The notes beneath the pieces were generated by a model. It was not told where the DNA came from and searched no databases. It saw only the letters and a program-made list of their open reading frames with translations. This document shows positions 2,679-56,755 of a stretch of 64,000 bases of DNA, piece by piece. The translations under genes were made by a program, and so were the position numbers. Position 1 is the stretch's first letter. Each line of letters begins with the position of its first letter. The stretch spans positions 124,001-188,000 of the forward strand of contig NZ_JAMLIW010000001.1 in the NCBI RefSeq assembly GCF_023953935.1, written 5' to 3'. Origin of the DNA: Thermomonas sp. (lineage in GTDB: Bacteria; Pseudomonadota; Gammaproteobacteria; Xanthomonadales; Xanthomonadaceae).

Positions 2679-3143
2679 CTAACGGGAATGAGAACTAAGG
2701 TAATCCTTCACCGTGGTGCGGAACGCGATGTTGAAGCGGTTCCAGCCGTTGATGGCGATGATGGCCAGGGTCAGGTCCACCAGCTCCTTGTCGCTGAACT
2801 GGCGATGGGCGTCTTCCCACGCCGCATCCGACACGTCCTGAGTGTTCGCAACCCGCGTCACCTCTTCGGTCCAGGCCAGCGCGGCGCGTTCGCGCGGGGT
2901 GTAGCAATGGGCGTCGCGCCAGGCCGGCAGCAGGTACAGGCGCTGCTCGGTTTCGCCCTGCGCGCGGGCGTCCTTGGTGTGCATTTCCAGGCACCAGGCG
3001 CAGCCATTGATCTGCGAGGCGCGCGATTTGACCAATTCGAGCAGGGATTCCTCCAGACCCAGGTGGTGGATCTGCTGTTCGAGGTGAAGCATGGCTTTGA
3101 ACGCTTCCGGGGAAGCGGTTTGGTAGGCAAGACGCTGGGACAT
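2679..3143 (-). CDS. AhpD-like carboxymuconolactone decarboxylase family protein
   Basis: A 154-residue all-helical protein of the CMD/AhpD family. It has the redox CxxC in the context NGCAWCLEMH (residues about 47-56), with the downstream His that serves as proton relay in AhpD peroxidases. The family detoxifies peroxides using a thiol donor; the true donor here is unknown. It resembles the short 'arsenate/peroxidase-related' CMD group rather than full AhpD because there is no second repeat. It lies 20 bases downstream of the PEP-mutase-like gene and could be cotranscribed with it. Function beyond a thiol-active peroxidase-like role is inference. Confidence 0.85.
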   Translation of the reverse strand: MSQRLAYQTASPEAFKAMLHLEQQIHHLGLEESLLELVKSRASQINGCAWCLEMHTKDARAQGETEQRLYLLPAWRDAHCYTPRERAALAWTEEVTRVANTQDVSDAAWEDAHRQFSDKELVDLTLAIIAINGWNRFNIAFRTTVKDYLSSHSR

Positions 3144-3163
3144 CGGAACCTCCGTGAATGACG

Positions 3164-4003
3164 TCAGTGTTTCGGGAACAACTGTTGTAGCGCGTCGTAG
3201 CCGAAACTGGCGTCAAGGCCTGCGAATTCGCCGGTGGCACGCAGGGCTTGCGCCGTTTCCCGGGCCGCCGAATACGCCACCATGGCCAATCGCGTGGCGG
3301 TGCTGACGCGCGCCACGCCGAGCTGTTTCAGCGCCTCCAGCGACGACGACCCGGCGCGGGCGCCGACGTTGATCGGCGTCGGTACCGCGCGGCAGAAGCG
3401 CTCGATGAGCTCCGGGTCGGACAGCGCGATCGGATAGATGCCGTCTGCACCCGCGTCGATGTAGGCGCGGGCGCGCTGAACGGCCTCTTCGAAGAGCGCC
3501 GCCGCATCCATCCCGCCGACGATCCAATTGTCCACGCGGGCATTGATGAACACATCGACGCCCGCGGATGCGGCAGCGGCGCGGGCGGCGGCAATACGCG
3601 CGGCGGCGTCACCCACCGGCCGCAGCCAGGCGTGCTCCACGCCGTCTTCCAGATTCAGGCCCACCGCGCCGGTGTCCAGCAGCGCGCGCACGCTTTCGCC
3701 GACCTGTTGCGGCGTGGCACCGAAGCCCGCTTCGAAATCCACCGTGACGGGCACATTCACCACCCGCACCATCCGCCGCACCGCCGCGAGCAACTCGGCC
3801 AGCGCCAGCACTTCGCCATCGGCGTGACCCAGCGACCACGCCACCCCGCCGCTGGTGGTGGCGATGGCCGGATAGCCCAATGCCGCGAAGATCGCCGCGC
3901 TGCCGGCATCCCAGGCATTGGGCAGCAACAGCGGACGGGCACCGTGGTGCAGCGCCGCGAACCGCCGCGCCAGATCGTGCTGCGCCTGCGTCGTCTCGCC
4001 CAT
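3164..4003 (-). CDS. Isocitrate lyase/PEP mutase family protein
   Basis: A 279-residue TIM-barrel protein of the PEP mutase/isocitrate lyase superfamily, whose members make or break C-C or P-C bonds next to a carboxylate through a Mg-enolate. Visible family signatures are LLLPNAWDAGSA near the N-terminus, the metal-binding VDFEAGFG segment (about residue 89), and GLNLEDGVEH. The typical catalytic KxxPTC-like loop of isocitrate lyase is absent, so it is neither true isocitrate lyase nor methylisocitrate lyase; a carboxyvinyl-phosphonate or oxaloacetate-hydrolase-like activity is possible but unproven. The ATG at 4003 overlaps the ffh stop by one base (TGATG), implying translational coupling; an in-frame TTG sits one codon upstream. 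Confidence 0.82.
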   Translation of the reverse strand: MGETTQAQHDLARRFAALHHGARPLLLPNAWDAGSAAIFAALGYPAIATTSGGVAWSLGHADGEVLALAELLAAVRRMVRVVNVPVTVDFEAGFGATPQQVGESVRALLDTGAVGLNLEDGVEHAWLRPVGDAAARIAAARAAAASAGVDVFINARVDNWIVGGMDAAALFEEAVQRARAYIDAGADGIYPIALSDPELIERFCRAVPTPINVGARAGSSSLEALKQLGVARVSTATRLAMVAYSAARETAQALRATGEFAGLDASFGYDALQQLFPKH

Positions 4004-5373
4004 CAATGCATCGGCGGCATGCCGCCGCGCCCGCCCATCATCCCGGACAGGCCGCGCATCATGCCCTTCATGCCGCCGCGGCCGAGCTTGCCCATCATCT
4101 TTTCCATCTGCTGATACTGCTTCATCAGCTTGTTGATGTCGGCCGGGGTCAGCCCGGAACCGCGGGCGATGCGGGCGCGCCGCGAGCCGTTGAGGAGGTC
4201 GGGATTGCGGCGCTCCTTCTTGGTCATCGAATTGATGATCGCGATCATCCGCGGCATTTCCTTGCCGGTGACCTGCTGCTTGACCGATTCGGGCAGTTGC
4301 CCCATGCCCGGCAGCTTGTCCATCAGCCCGTGCAGGCCACCCATGTTCTGCATCTGCTCGAGTTGGTCGCGCATGTCGTTGAGGTCGAAGCGCTTGCCCT
4401 TGGCGACTTTCTCGGCCAGTTTCTGCGCCTTGTCCTTGTCGACCTGCGATTCCACCTGCTCGACCAGCGACAGCACATCGCCCATGTCGAGGATGCGGCC
4501 GGCGGCGCGCTCGGGGTGGAACACGTCGAGGCCATCGGGCTTTTCGCCGACGCCGATGAACTTGATCGGCTTGCCGGTGATGTAGCGCACCGACAGCGCC
4601 GCGCCGCCGCGCGCATCGCCGTCGGTCTTGGTCAGCACCACGCCGGTCAGCGGCAGCGCCTCGCCGAAATGCCTGGCGGTGACGGCGGCGTCCTGGCCGG
4701 TCATCGAATCGACCACGAACAGGGTCTCGACCGGATGCACGGCGGCGTGCAGGGCCTTGATCTCGGCCATCATGGCGTCGTCGATCGAGGTGCGGCCGGC
4801 GGTATCGACGATCAGCACGTCGGCGAAGGTCTTCTTCGCCTCGTCGATCGCCGCCCTGACGATGGCCTCGGGCTTCTGCGACGCCGCCGACGGGTAGAAC
4901 ACCACGCCGACCTGCCCGGCCAGCGTCTGCAGCTGCTCGATCGCGGCCGGACGGTAGACGTCGGCGGACACCACCATCACCTTCTTCTTGCGCTTGTCCT
5001 TCAGGTGCTTGGCCAGCTTGGCCACGGTGGTGGTCTTGCCGGCACCTTGCAGGCCCGCCATCAGGATGACGGCCGGCGCGGGCACGTTGAGGTTGAGCTC
5101 GGTGGCCTGCGACCCCATCACCGCCGCCAGTTCGTCGCGCACGATCCGCACCAGCACCTGGCCGGGGGTCAATGAACGCAGCACTTCCTGGCCCAGCGCA
5201 CGCACCTTGATGCGCTGGATCAGGGCCTGCACCACCGGCAGCGCAACGTCGGCTTCGAGCAGGGCGATGCGCACTTCGCGCATGGCCTCGCTGATGTTGG
5301 ATTCGGTCAGGCGGCCACGGCCGCGCAGGCGTTCGATCGTGCCGGACAGGCGTTGGGTCAGGGATTCAAACAC
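4003..5373 (-). CDS. ffh: Signal recognition particle protein Ffh (SRP54)
   Basis: Ffh is the GTPase of the bacterial SRP: with 4.5S RNA it binds signal sequences of nascent inner-membrane proteins and docks on FtsY. The 456-residue product shows the NG domain (P-loop GLQGAGKTTTVAKLAKHLK, VDTAGR, TKTDGDARGG) and a methionine-rich M domain (MGGLHGLMDKLPGMGQ, C-terminal MMGKLGRGGMKGMMRG). The best start is GTG at 5373 (VFESLTQRLSG), which aligns with the normal family N-terminus; the frame stays open upstream but that part is not conserved. It overlaps the PEP-mutase-like gene by one base. Confidence 0.96.
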   Translation of the reverse strand: MFESLTQRLSGTIERLRGRGRLTESNISEAMREVRIALLEADVALPVVQALIQRIKVRALGQEVLRSLTPGQVLVRIVRDELAAVMGSQATELNLNVPAPAVILMAGLQGAGKTTTVAKLAKHLKDKRKKKVMVVSADVYRPAAIEQLQTLAGQVGVVFYPSAASQKPEAIVRAAIDEAKKTFADVLIVDTAGRTSIDDAMMAEIKALHAAVHPVETLFVVDSMTGQDAAVTARHFGEALPLTGVVLTKTDGDARGGAALSVRYITGKPIKFIGVGEKPDGLDVFHPERAAGRILDMGDVLSLVEQVESQVDKDKAQKLAEKVAKGKRFDLNDMRDQLEQMQNMGGLHGLMDKLPGMGQLPESVKQQVTGKEMPRMIAIINSMTKKERRNPDLLNGSRRARIARGSGLTPADINKLMKQYQQMEKMMGKLGRGGMKGMMRGLSGMMGGRGGMPPMH

Positions 5374-49536: not shown

Positions 49537-50704
<1,168 letters not shown>

Positions 50705-50717
50705 CGTTCCAACAACG

Positions 50718-50740
50718 AAAAACCCCGCACGCGGCGGGGC
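50718..50740 (-). terminator. Rho-independent terminator of rplU-rpmA
   Basis: On the minus strand a stem CCCCGC/GCGGGG (50739-50734 with 50728-50723) is followed by five T, about 25 bases after the rpmA stop. obgE is therefore probably expressed by read-through or from a promoter inside the repeat region. Confidence 0.8.
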
Positions 50741-50763
50741 TTCTCGCGCGTGTCGCGTGCCGC

Positions 50764-51024
50764 TTACTGCGCGGCGGCGACGCTGACCGTGCGGCGCTTC
50801 TTCGGGCCCTTGGTGGAGAATTCCACGGTGCCGTCGATGAGCGCGAACAGGGTGTGGTCGCGGCCGAGGCCGACGCCGGTGCCCGGATGGAACTGGGTGC
50901 CGCGCTGGCGCACGATGATGTTGCCGGCTTCGATGGCCTGGCCACCGTAGATCTTCACGCCGAGGTACTTCGGATTCGAGTCGCGGCCGTTGCGGGTCGA
51001 ACCACCAGCCTTTTTATGTGCCAT
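50764..51024 (-). CDS. rpmA: 50S ribosomal protein L27
   Basis: L27 reaches the peptidyl-transferase centre with its N-terminus. The 86-residue product begins [20 protein letters not shown] and contains [15 protein letters not shown]; no cleavable N-terminal extension of the firmicute type is present. It follows rplU by 12 bases. Confidence 0.98.
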
Positions 51025-51036
51025 GACGGCGTCTCC

Positions 51037-51354
51037 TTACTTGCTGCCACCGGCAATGCCGGTGATCTGGATTTCGGTGTAGTGCTGCCGGTGGCCCATC
51101 TGCTTGCGATGGTGCTTGCGGCGGCGGAACTTGACGATGCGCACCTTGTCGGCGCGGCCGTGGCCGACGACCTTCGCGGTGACCGAGGCGCCCTTGAGCG
51201 CGTCGCCGAGCTTGATGCCATCGGCATCGCCGAGCATCAGGATGTTGTCCAGCTTGATCTCGCTGCCGGCTTCGGCTTCGAGCAGTTCGACGCGGAGCGT
51301 TTCGCCCTGCATCACGCGGTATTGCTTGCCGCCGGTGACCAGTACTGCGTACAT
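51037..51354 (-). CDS. rplU: 50S ribosomal protein L21
   Basis: Binds 23S rRNA in the 50S subunit. The 105-residue protein begins [18 protein letters not shown] and contains [21 protein letters not shown], as in the family. It is the first gene of rplU-rpmA and has a strong promoter and a leader of about 78 bases with a GCCCGCC/GGGCGG-type hairpin. Confidence 0.98.
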
Positions 51355-51438
51355 GAAAGGTTTCCTCGTGGGTTCTGTCGTTCTTCTTGGGTGCTCGTGA
51401 TCGAGCCCTGCCCGCCATCGAGGGCGGACAGAAGCGGA

Positions 51439-51468
51439 ATTGTAGCCGATTCATCGAGTTATGGTCAA
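51439..51468 (-). promoter_or_regulatory. Predicted promoter of rplU-rpmA
   Basis: On the minus strand a -35 TTGACC (51468-51463), 18-base spacer and -10 TACAAT (51444-51439), 85 bases upstream of the rplU ATG. Confidence 0.7.
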
Positions 51469-51638
51469 ACGCTGGCTGTGGCCGCGATTGTTGCAGGCGG
51501 CCCGGGCGCCCTGCCGGTTTCACGCCCGGCGCGAGGCCATGCACTCGACCGTCACGCTGGCTGCCTAGACTGAGTGCGTCTTCGCGCTGCGACATGCCGC
51601 TGCGCGATCGAATTCGAGCTCACATCAAGAGGCATCCC

Positions 51639-53651
51639 ATGACGGAAACCGAGGGCCGGAATTCGGCCAATTCCAATTGGCCGGCGATGGCCGGCACCGC
51701 GCTGCGCGTGGCGTTCGGCATGATCTGGGCGGTTGGCGCCGCGCTGACCTTCAGCGCCGATTTCGCCAACAACTACGTGGGCTATCTGCACAATGCCGCG
51801 ACCGGACAACCGGCCTGGTCGGCGTGGTGGTTCAGCATGTGGATCGCGCTGGTGACGCCCAACGTGACCTTCTTCGTGTGGGCGACGCGGATCGCCGAAG
51901 TGCTGCTGGCCGTCGCCCTGCTGTTTGGCATCGCCCGCAAGTTCACCTACATCATCGGCATCCTGTTCAGCCTGCTGATCTGGAGCACGGCCGAGGGTTT
52001 CGGTGGGCCGTATTCGGTGGGCGCCAGCAACATCGGCGCGGCGCTGAGCTATGTGCTGATCTTCGCCGCGCTGATCGTCATCAACATGCGCTCCGGGCCG
52101 AGCCCGTACAGCCTGGACTACCTGATCGAACAGCGCTGGCCGACGTGGCGCAGGCTGTCGGAGTGGAATCCGGACGTGCGCCCCGAACAGGTGCAGCACC
52201 TGTCCTGGCGGGTGCAGGCGCCGGCTTTGGCGGGCGTGCTGCTGTTGACCGCGCTGCTGCTGGCCGGGCTGCACAGTGCCTTGAACGTGCGCTCCGCCAG
52301 TCCGGCTGCCGCGGCCGCCGCGGTATCGCCACTGGCACTGGCGTCCGCCAACCCGGTGGCGCAAGCGCGTGACGCGCGATTGCCGCCGGTGCCCGCGGGC
52401 GATACCGCGGAGATCCGGATCGGCGTGTCCGACGACAACATCGAGATCGCCAGCGGCGTGCAATACCAGGCGTGGACCTTCGGCAAATCGGTGCCCGGCC
52501 CGGTGATCCATGTCCGTCAAGGGCAGATGGTGAAGGTGGTGCTGACCAACAACGGCAGCATGCAGCATTCGATCGACTTCCACTCGGCGATCACGCCGCC
52601 GAACCTGCATTACGTTGACATCATGCCCGGCGAGTCGATCGAGTTCACCTTCGAAGCGAAGGTGGCTGGCGCCTTCCTCTACCACTGCGGCACCCCGCCG
52701 GTGCTGTTGCACATCGGCAATGGCATGTACGGCGCGATGATCGTCGATCCGGCCATCCCGCTGCCGCCGGCCGCCGAAAGCTATGTGCTGGTGCAGGGCG
52801 AGTGGTACACCCAACAGGTGTCCGGCCAGGTCATGGCGGGCAACTACCAGAAGATGCTGGACATCAAGCCGGACGAAGTGGTGTTCAACGGCGTGGCGTT
52901 CCAGTACCGCGACCATCCGCTGACCGCCAGGCCCGGCGATCTGGTGCGGATGTACGTGGTCAACGCCGGCCCGAGCCTGTGGAGCGCGTTCCACGTGATC
53001 GGCGCGATCTTCGACAAGGTCTATCCGGGCGGCAATCCGGCCCAGGCCATCGATGGCGTGTCCACCTACAGCGTGGGGCCGGGTGAAGGCGCGGTATTCG
53101 ATCTGACCCTGGACGAGGCCGGCCACTACCCGTTCGTCGATCATTCGATGGCGCATCTGGAACTGGGCGCGGTGGGCGTGCTGGCCGTAGGCGACGTGGG
53201 CAACGCCAAGCCGCCGATCACGCGCTCGGCAACCCCGGCGCCACCGCCGCCGCAGGCGACCGGCCCGTATGCGTTCAACCCGGCGAAAGCGGAACAACTC
53301 TACAACCGCAATTGCAGCGCCTGCCACCAGCCCAGCGGTGAAGGCACGCCGGGCATGTTCCCGCCGCTCAAGGGCAATGCCGTGGTGCTCGCTCCCGATC
53401 CGACCAAGCAGATCAGCGTCATCCTGAACGGCATGCACGGTGAGGCGATCGACGGCGTCAACTATCAGGGCGCAATGCCTCCGTTCGCCTCGACCCTGAA
53501 CGATGCCGACATTGCCGACATCGCCAATCACGAGCGCACCTCCTGGGGCAACCAGGGCAGGCCGATCACGGCCGACGAGGTGAAACGGGTTCGCGGAACA
53601 CCGGCGGCAGCGCCAGCACCGACACCGGCCGGCGGCGGTCACGCGCATTGA
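51639..53651 (+). CDS. DoxD-like / copper nitrite reductase / cytochrome c fusion
   Basis: Predicted to reduce nitrite to nitric oxide. The 670-residue chain has (1) a DoxD/DoxX-like membrane domain, about residues 20-150, four helices with the hallmark TAEGFGGPYSVGASNIGAA; (2) one further helix at about 195-211; (3) a two-cupredoxin NirK at about 255-520; (4) a cytochrome c domain at about 545-635 (CSACH, Cys559, Cys562, His563; Met613 as likely axial ligand). All NirK residues are present: type 1 copper His310, Cys350, His358, Met363; type 2 copper His315, His349, His502; catalytic Asp313 and His452. The 8-residue Cys-His spacing is class II, as in AniA. The protein lacks a cleavable signal; membrane topology should place copper and heme outside. 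It stands alone, divergent from rplU. Confidence 0.88.
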   Translation: MTETEGRNSANSNWPAMAGTALRVAFGMIWAVGAALTFSADFANNYVGYLHNAATGQPAWSAWWFSMWIALVTPNVTFFVWATRIAEVLLAVALLFGIARKFTYIIGILFSLLIWSTAEGFGGPYSVGASNIGAALSYVLIFAALIVINMRSGPSPYSLDYLIEQRWPTWRRLSEWNPDVRPEQVQHLSWRVQAPALAGVLLLTALLLAGLHSALNVRSASPAAAAAAVSPLALASANPVAQARDARLPPVPAGDTAEIRIGVSDDNIEIASGVQYQAWTFGKSVPGPVIHVRQGQMVKVVLTNNGSMQHSIDFHSAITPPNLHYVDIMPGESIEFTFEAKVAGAFLYHCGTPPVLLHIGNGMYGAMIVDPAIPLPPAAESYVLVQGEWYTQQVSGQVMAGNYQKMLDIKPDEVVFNGVAFQYRDHPLTARPGDLVRMYVVNAGPSLWSAFHVIGAIFDKVYPGGNPAQAIDGVSTYSVGPGEGAVFDLTLDEAGHYPFVDHSMAHLELGAVGVLAVGDVGNAKPPITRSATPAPPPPQATGPYAFNPAKAEQLYNRNCSACHQPSGEGTPGMFPPLKGNAVVLAPDPTKQISVILNGMHGEAIDGVNYQGAMPPFASTLNDADIADIANHERTSWGNQGRPITADEVKRVRGTPAAAPAPTPAGGGHAH

Positions 53652-53681
53652 GGATCCCCATTCGCCGTGAACCGCTTACAT

Positions 53682-53767
53682 CGTCACCCCGGCGAAAGCC
53701 GGGGTCCATTTGGTTCTCCGGCTGCATTGAAGAATCGAAATGGATGCCGGCTTGCGCCGGCATGACG
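53682..53767. repeat. REP-type double hairpin downstream of the nitrite reductase fusion
   Basis: Hairpin ccccggc-gaaa-gccgggg (53687-53704) and hairpin atgccggc-ttgc-gccggcat (53744-53763) are themselves arranged as imperfect inverted copies (about 24 of 30 bases), giving a paired REP/BIME-like element. It lies where the nirK-like transcript should end, and may stabilise or end it. Confidence 0.75.
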
Positions 53768-53860
53768 CGGCTGGTTCTGTTGCGTTGTCGAGTGAACACG
53801 GCGTCACGCCGAACATGCCCGACGCGCTAAACTGCTCGGTCGCTTCCCGAATCCACGACG

Positions 53861-56751
<2,891 letters not shown>

Positions 56752-56755
<4 letters not shown>

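Follow-up and report, generated by a model that had tools for sequence, protein, structure and literature searches.

The window analysed here is a stretch of 64,000 nucleotides from Thermomonas sp. (contig NZ_JAMLIW010000001.1, positions 124,001 to 188,000). It carries at 51639..53651, on the forward strand like all window features given below, a complete gene for a protein of 670 amino acids in which a DoxX-like membrane domain, a copper nitrite reductase (NirK) core and a cytochrome c domain follow each other in a single chain. The open reading frame (ORF) starts with an ATG at 51639, and a Shine-Dalgarno-like AAGAGG (51627..51632) fits this start. An earlier note, made from the sequence, had described these coordinates and this domain order, and Pfam, NCBIfam and alignment agree with it. 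The N-terminal four-helix domain comprises residues ~14-162 (51678..52124), in keeping with the residues 20-150 named in that note. A fifth transmembrane helix, which is poorly conserved, is placed by the models at residues ~190-215 (52206..52283) and leads into an Ala/Pro-rich linker (residues 216-255; 52284..52403), delimited by alignment. The two-domain reductase core (residues 256-520; 52404..53198) was identified with TIGR02376, with sequence matches in the Protein Data Bank (PDB) and with Foldseek. The cytochrome c domain covers residues 546-640 (53274..53558).

The catalytic part of the protein is readily recognized. Pfam recognizes Cu-oxidase domains in two stretches (residues 264-371 and 380-444), followed by cytochrome c at 549-631 (PF00034, E 5e-11). 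The NCBIfam model for copper nitrite reductases, TIGR02376, gives 172 bits over residues 256-517, below a curated cut-off of 296 that belongs to an NCBI equivalog model and is not a biochemical criterion. The closest solved relatives are the NirK-cytochrome c chains of Ralstonia pickettii (E ~1e-71, query residues 259-660). In this class III heme-copper NirK (PDB 3ziy, 4ax3), too, a pair of cupredoxin domains holding type 1 and type 2 copper is followed by a cytochrome c domain at the C-terminus; identity to the protein from the window is 39% for the core and, over 95 residues, 41% for the cytochrome. In contrast, its chains are without a DoxX-like domain, and the alignment begins at residue 259 of the query. 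With the full-length model, Foldseek also ranks the NirKs of P. haloplanktis and R. pickettii on top (E 1e-26 to 6e-29); these matches have low template-modelling scores and a root-mean-square deviation of 14-15 Å, and therefore the arrangement of the domains in this model is not reliable.

Nine residues, with roles assigned according to NirK numbering, are invariant in all 33 aligned members of the family. These are H310 (type 1 copper), the catalytic D313 and H315 (type 2 copper) at 52566..52583; H349 (type 2 copper), C350, H358 and M363 (type 1 copper) at 52683..52727; the catalytic H452 (52992..52994); and H502, the third type 2 copper histidine (53142..53144). The type 1 set (H310, C350, H358, M363) and the type 2 set (H315, H349, H502) are thus both present. 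The heme motif CSACH (residues 559-563; 53313..53327) provides C559, C562 and H563, which are retained, together with the likely axial ligand M613 (53475..53477), in 26 of 26 rows carrying the cytochrome domain. The full complement of copper, catalytic and heme ligands that the earlier note had reported is therefore present. Because these residues are complete and the homology is clear, reduction of nitrite on the periplasmic side by way of heme c, type 1 and type 2 copper is well supported, as is the assignment of the protein, from its sequence, as a membrane-bound NirK, that is, an inner-membrane, periplasm-facing nitrite reductase. Electrons would pass from heme c to type 1 copper and on to type 2 copper, where nitrite would be converted to nitric oxide (NO), as in the R. 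pickettii enzyme.

The N-terminal domain is more divergent. Searched as a single sequence, residues 1-230 match no Pfam family at E<=10; the domain stays below the gathering score of Pfam DoxX (PF07681), and a Pfam scan of the chain finds no DoxA region. For the single sequence, the outcome that the earlier note had named as refuting its proposal, no homology of residues 20-150 to DoxX/DoxD in a hidden Markov model search, has literally occurred. Among 29 domains of the family, 11 match Pfam DoxX weakly (best E 0.075); the same scan contains a chance-looking match to PF07234 at a lower E, 0.028, in two members. One of the 29 matches the NCBIfam family HvfX, which is involved in the maturation of copper-binding ribosomally synthesized and post-translationally modified peptides (E 0.0036). 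Stand-alone and tandem relatives of the domain come closer to DoxX (E 0.0065, 0.046 and 1.6e-4), the last of these, L054, with 22.7 bits being just under the gathering score of 23.6, while two fusion domains scanned alongside have no match to DoxX or any other family.

Comparison of profiles with hhalign is more sensitive to this relationship. The fusions alone score 93.3% against 26 DoxX sequences (E 2.8e-7, 134 columns) and just 20.7% against three DoxD sequences, with 0.8-1.7% for four reversed controls. When 18 stand-alone relatives are added, the scores are 95.7% for DoxX (E 8.7e-9; reversed control 1.5%) and 92.1% for DoxD (E 6.1e-7; reversed control 7.7%). The fusion alignment consisted of 28 of the 33 N-termini of the family (without L009, L010, L015, L016 and L025) and the truncated L035. 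The DoxX set comprised 26 of 30 fetched loci (L070 was dropped for an internal stop, and L068, L078 and L083 were also dropped) and the DoxD set the three of 30 whose match takes in almost all of the model, at E <=1.1e-22. The combined profile was built from 12 of the 29 fusion rows and the 18 stand-alones (17 Chloroflexota regions and L191), without the tandem (L189, L190, L192) and long-frame (L210-L212) relatives. Since the scores exceed those of the reversed controls, a place of the domain as a divergent member of the DoxX/DoxD superfamily, outside the DoxD family proper, is supported. The label "DoxD-like" of the earlier note consequently holds at the level of the superfamily, but not in a single-sequence Pfam search; DoxX proteins are often misnamed DoxD (PMC6704655).

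DoxX and DoxD (PF07681, PF04173), the latter known from thiosulfate:quinone oxidoreductase (TQO), are likewise four-helix membrane domains, with which 137-153 columns can be aligned, and a similar end motif, G-x4-S-x-D, is seen by eye. The window domain differs from them in being below the Pfam thresholds, in its fusion to NirK and in a chain that is without a DoxA part. An AF2 model of the domain (mean predicted local distance difference test, pLDDT, 77) has long helices at residues 14-37, 59-96, 100-117, 128-152 and 190-216. A profile search of the PDB with this domain yields no match at E<=10, and Foldseek matches its model to no solved structure (best E 1.0).

Averaged over 33 rows, the loops 97-102 and 150-190, predicted to be cytoplasmic, contain 1.9 and 5.8 lysines and arginines, and the loops 38-74 and 118-131 contain 0.5 and 0.0. 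On the basis of the positive-inside rule the latter two are predicted to face the periplasm, and five predicted helices would bring NirK and heme to the periplasm as well. Copper and heme would therefore be located on the same side of the membrane as the conserved outer loops of the domain, an arrangement on which the earlier note had made its proposal depend. Loop 1 (residues 38-74; 51750..51860) is invariant at 14 of 37 positions and loop 2 (residues 118-131, with AEGFGGPY; 51990..52031) at 8 of 14, the latter being the best-conserved stretch of the domain.

Between forms with and without a cytochrome, mean identity is 0.78 in loop 118-131 and 0.71 in the third transmembrane helix, as against 0.64 in the NirK core. 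It amounts to 0.61 in loop 38-74, 0.53 in both the second helix and the linker 213-255, 0.44 in the first helix, 0.41 in the cytoplasmic stretch 151-189, 0.40 in the fourth helix and 0.29 in the fifth. With a loop above the enzyme core and low values for the last two helices, the conservation does not resemble what a simple anchor would show. The view that anchoring is all the N-terminus does is weakened by this pattern, yet not rejected.

Part of this conservation is found in the 18 stand-alone relatives, which are without NirK. W64, W68 and the residues of TAEGFGGPY are each kept in 13 to 18 of them. R23, W64, W115 and G133 are present in all 18, W68 and D160 in 17, Q57, P58 and F121 in 16, and E119, G120, G123 and P124 in 15, so that R23, W64, W68, W115, E119-GFGGP and D160 are common to the fusions and to the stand-alones of Chloroflexota and other groups. 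In contrast, R84, N131, V47 and N52, which every aligned fusion has, occur in none of the 18, and Y46 and G48 in two; the stand-alones have alanine at R84 (18/18) and aspartate at N131 (16/18). As some residues are shared and others restricted to the fusions, the conservation is partly intrinsic to the domain, and another part came with the NirK partner.

The fusion is not confined to Thermomonas. A scan of genome contigs yielded 48 related loci: 25 with the full layout, as judged by open frame and alignment; seven with the N-terminal domain and NirK without the cytochrome, in Thermomicrobiota, Planctomycetota and Verrucomicrobiota; one cut by a contig end (L035); 14 with NirK without the domain; and one fragment. 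The full layout is encoded by Rhodanobacter, Frateuria, Thermomonas, Castellaniella, Paraburkholderia, Beijerinckiaceae and others. Chance or an artefact as the source of the layout is rejected, since it recurs in these 25 further loci. Among sampled genomes of the phylum, 4 of 398 have matches, and the Thermomonas genome alone has a frame of fusion size; in the order there are 12 of 398, ten of fusion size (Thermomonas included) and two encoding tandem DoxX-like proteins. The gene is absent from the four other sampled members of the genus and thus patchy within it. Among 3382 plasmid records with matches, there is none in which 80% of the protein is covered at a single place.

A tree built from the NirK cores has the 33 fusions as one side of a branch (support 99/95, or 100/96 with the R. 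pickettii core added), and the 26 cytochrome forms also form one side of a branch (94/95), with the non-cytochrome forms outside. The R. pickettii core, the sole sequence of its kind included, lies apart from the fusions and has a very long branch (2.5). L035, L049 and L050 were left out of the trees, and L041, whose core is identical to that of L040, also out of the tree with R. pickettii. The simplest reading is that DoxX and NirK were joined first and that the cytochrome was added later in Pseudomonadota; since roots were set by midpoint only, this order is inferred. The position of R. pickettii outside the fusion clade implies that a cytochrome may have been added twice.

In the open-access literature no description of a DoxX-NirK fusion was found, most subscription papers being outside the search, in line with the earlier note, which knew of no characterized protein of this layout. 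Class III NirKs are described with an extra heme or type 1 copper domain at either end and no membrane module (PMC6400189), a survey of 6422 NirKs and "select structural features" does not contain the word transmembrane in its text (PMC10999283), and a report on other chimeric Nir proteins in Chloroflexi contains neither DoxX nor DoxD (PMC8756737). The present protein is a new variant of the class III (multi-domain) NirK, to which it adds a membrane module.

The stand-alone relatives offer a view of the domain outside its fusion. The domain is matched in 40 of 400 genomes of the phylum to which the host of the fusion locus L030 belongs, and 17 of 20 selected regions contain stand-alone DoxX-like genes. 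The Pfam family seen most often in the 84 ORFs that lie no further than 1 kb from them is Cupredoxin_1 (4 of 84), and the metal-sensing repressor family Trns_repr_metal is found in two of the 84. The cupredoxin-like genes adjoin the stand-alones at four of the 17 loci (L194, L195, L198 and L199); a cupredoxin-type gathering score is passed by all but L198, and in L194 the cupredoxin gene starts before the DoxX-like gene has ended. For the 74 ORFs of control windows at a distance of 3.5-4.5 kb, the best 25 of 143 families include no cupredoxin, a figure that leaves room for one cupredoxin among these ORFs. All four cupredoxins had been seen by eye beforehand, and the scan of near and far windows hence confirms rather than discovers them. 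By tblastn there is no NirK beside the stand-alone genes in 24 regions searched. In L199, a polytopic protein that by eye resembles transporters of the DsbD/CcdA type (4445-5335, -) directly follows the neighbouring cupredoxin.

Soluble cytochromes or cupredoxins are generally regarded as the donors that NirK enzymes need. With the layout described here, nitrite respiration may obtain its electrons right at the membrane. The DoxX-like module would exchange electrons with the quinone pool on one side and with type 1 copper or heme c on the other, so that the whole would act as a quinol-to-cupredoxin relay in a tethered enzyme. In the non-cytochrome form electrons would go straight to type 1 copper, and the cytochrome added later in Pseudomonadota could either relay them or open a second entry from the cytochrome bc1 complex. 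In favour of a quinone link are TQO, for which ferricyanide or decylubiquinone serves as the electron acceptor (PMC6335251); GigT; the cupredoxin neighbours at 4/17 loci; the conservation on the predicted periplasmic face; and the forms that are without heme. GigT of Cupriavidus metallidurans, loosely related to DoxX, is proposed to transfer electrons from Cu(I) in the periplasm to the quinol pool (PMC10304878); it is likened here by its description, is encoded in a separate operon, and its function is itself a proposal (PMC10304878).

That the domain relays electrons between the quinone pool and the enzyme tethered to it, at type 1 copper or at heme c, is a plausible reading, with somewhat less than an even chance of being right. 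Direct oxidation of quinol is possible. The more complete proposal, a single-chain, NO-forming quinol:nitrite oxidoreductase in which a cofactor-less DoxX module oxidizes quinol on the periplasmic face and hands the electrons directly to type 1 copper or heme c, so that neither bc1 nor a soluble carrier is needed, and of which the pairs of stand-alone DoxX-like genes and cupredoxins are the two-gene form, is unlikely to hold in all its parts. A NirK on a DoxX-type module, with members in several phyla and with its conservation on the side of the enzyme, would offer denitrification a direct entry of electrons at the membrane, and the large and poorly understood DoxX superfamily would gain a testable function in electron exchange with copper proteins.

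Several findings weigh against electron entry through the domain. There is no cysteine before residue 350, and the invariant residues of the domain include no cysteine, histidine or methionine. No relay by heme, metal or disulfide is thus evident in it, and quinol would need to pass its electrons to type 1 copper or heme c with no intermediate. The cytochrome b of bc1 is present in the Thermomonas genome (2.59 Mb, 99.98% complete) and strong in eight of eight tested cytochrome-form hosts, which means that a bypass of bc1 is not forced. Direct use of quinol, as put forward in the earlier note, is a possibility only. A second NirK over the family cut-off occurs in 10 of 16 searched fusion genomes. 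The neighbours of the gene in Pseudomonadota are mostly housekeeping-like (comF-, bioB-, bioF- and uvrA-like, names given from sequence without a family search), with no conserved denitrification neighbours seen there, and FNR/DNR boxes are not enriched in 30 upstream regions (mean best score 6.6/10, against 6.25 in shuffled sequence; the best single regions reach 9 in L018 and 8 in L023 and others). The short cytoplasmic loop 97-101 equals the first periplasmic loop in identity (0.61), and the charges of the N-terminal tail (K+R 0.9, D+E 1.8 over the 33 rows) do not favour an inside position. Confidence in the full-length model is low (pLDDT 67.6; predicted template-modelling score 0.46), and no cupredoxin is found within 1 kb at 13 of the 17 stand-alone loci. 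As a candidate of its own, thiol-mediated electron transfer inside the N-terminal domain is ruled out by the absence of cysteine before residue 350.

The same evidence bears on a serious, though somewhat unlikely, alternative, in which the domain is a membrane tether and docking platform only and a soluble cytochrome c carries electrons from bc1 to the heme of the fusion, as in other heme-copper NirKs. The presence of bc1 in all tested cytochrome-form genomes, the kinship of the cytochrome to that of R. pickettii NirK and the want of an evident cofactor ligand in the domain speak for a tether. Moreover, other membrane-bound NirKs exist, such as the predicted lipoproteins of Bacillus and Geobacillus (PMC3475470). 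For the membrane-associated NirK of Bacillus azotoformans the use of menaquinol has been proposed; it differs from the present protein as a predicted lipoprotein for which the accessible part of the source mentions no DoxX-like domain (PMC3475470). On the other hand, the fifth helix, which would suffice as an anchor, is the least conserved one, whereas loop 118-131 is conserved above the enzyme core and loop 38-74 nearly equals it. Furthermore, seven aligned members have no cytochrome, and in their hosts (several of them metagenome-assembled genomes, MAGs) the cytochrome b of bc1 is weak in three and not detected in four.

The domain could instead handle copper, by oxidizing or delivering periplasmic copper for the protein tethered to it, like the proposed role of GigT (PMC10304878). 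The cupredoxins and metal-sensing repressors near the stand-alones and the HvfX match fit such a role, but the invariant residues include no Cys, His or Met, and most NirKs are loaded without a fusion of this kind. This explanation is improbable. Least probable is a role that is not mainly respiratory, such as low-flux production or detoxification of NO or the use of another substrate: the further NirKs in fusion genomes, the TIGR02376 score below the cut-off and the lack of enriched FNR/DNR boxes are in its favour, whereas the nine catalytic and copper residues are all invariant, the Thermomonas genome has a cNorB and no other copper NirK or NirS match, and in L027 a gene with a hybrid-cluster-protein-associated domain and a marginal NnrS match overlaps the fusion gene.

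With regard to the host genomes, the fusion is the only copper nitrite reductase match in Thermomonas, where no NirS-domain match exists either; in 22 genomes searched for the NirS domain there are matches in four, all partial. No other NirK over the cut-off is found in six of the 16 fusion genomes, namely Thermomonas and the hosts of L003, L004, L005, L012 and L019. The NorB of Thermomonas matches a solved subunit B of nitric-oxide reductase (cNorB, E 1.7e-60) and has no NCBIfam match. In the locus concerned (L146:2730-5407, +) cNorB is preceded by a c-type cytochrome of 324 amino acids with two CxxCH motifs, which exceeds the usual length of NorC.

In L027, an Isosphaeraceae MAG, the next gene (2729-4885, +) begins before the fusion ORF has ended. 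Its product contains a hybrid-cluster-protein-associated domain, in two stretches, and DUF1858, with NnrS barely above and COX1 below the gathering score, and it is perhaps an NO-handling membrane protein, judging by these domains. Downstream of the fusion, L030 has an NDH2-like dehydrogenase gene and L028 a gene for an Fe-S protein.

In Rhodanobacter, eight strains have complete sets of denitrification genes, and strain FW510-R12 has an extra nirK, the type of which is unstated in the text available (PMC8809349). A nirK of R12, again with the type unstated there, rises during nitrite reduction in co-culture (PMC12146267). As this genus is reported to be dominant in nitrate-contaminated acidic groundwater (PMC8809349), its members of the fusion family may bear on the origins of NO and nitrous oxide in such waters.

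By eye, the fusion gene is flanked in the window (49537-56755) by rplU-rpmA-obgE-like genes and a uvrA-like gene. The same flanks are present in L003 and L005, the latter with extra ORFs before uvrA. The shared site, yet absence from four sampled members of the genus, suggests gain or loss there.

Other arrangements of the DoxX-like domain were also seen. Proteins of two DoxX-like halves are encoded in L189 (5067-6020, -), L190 (4734-5729, +), L053 and L054, a GGPY-type motif being present in at least one, and tblastn detects no NirK near the two-half proteins of L189, L190 and L192. In Chloroflexota (L210:2912-4312, L211:5127-7226 and L212:5534-7462) the domain is followed in frame by repeats that look Kelch-like by eye. 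Finally, the Thermomonas genome encodes at L145:4191-6250 (-) a heme-copper oxidase subunit I, accompanied, by eye, by a CuA-type subunit II and a SCO-like gene, and separate from the two stronger COX1 matches of this genome.

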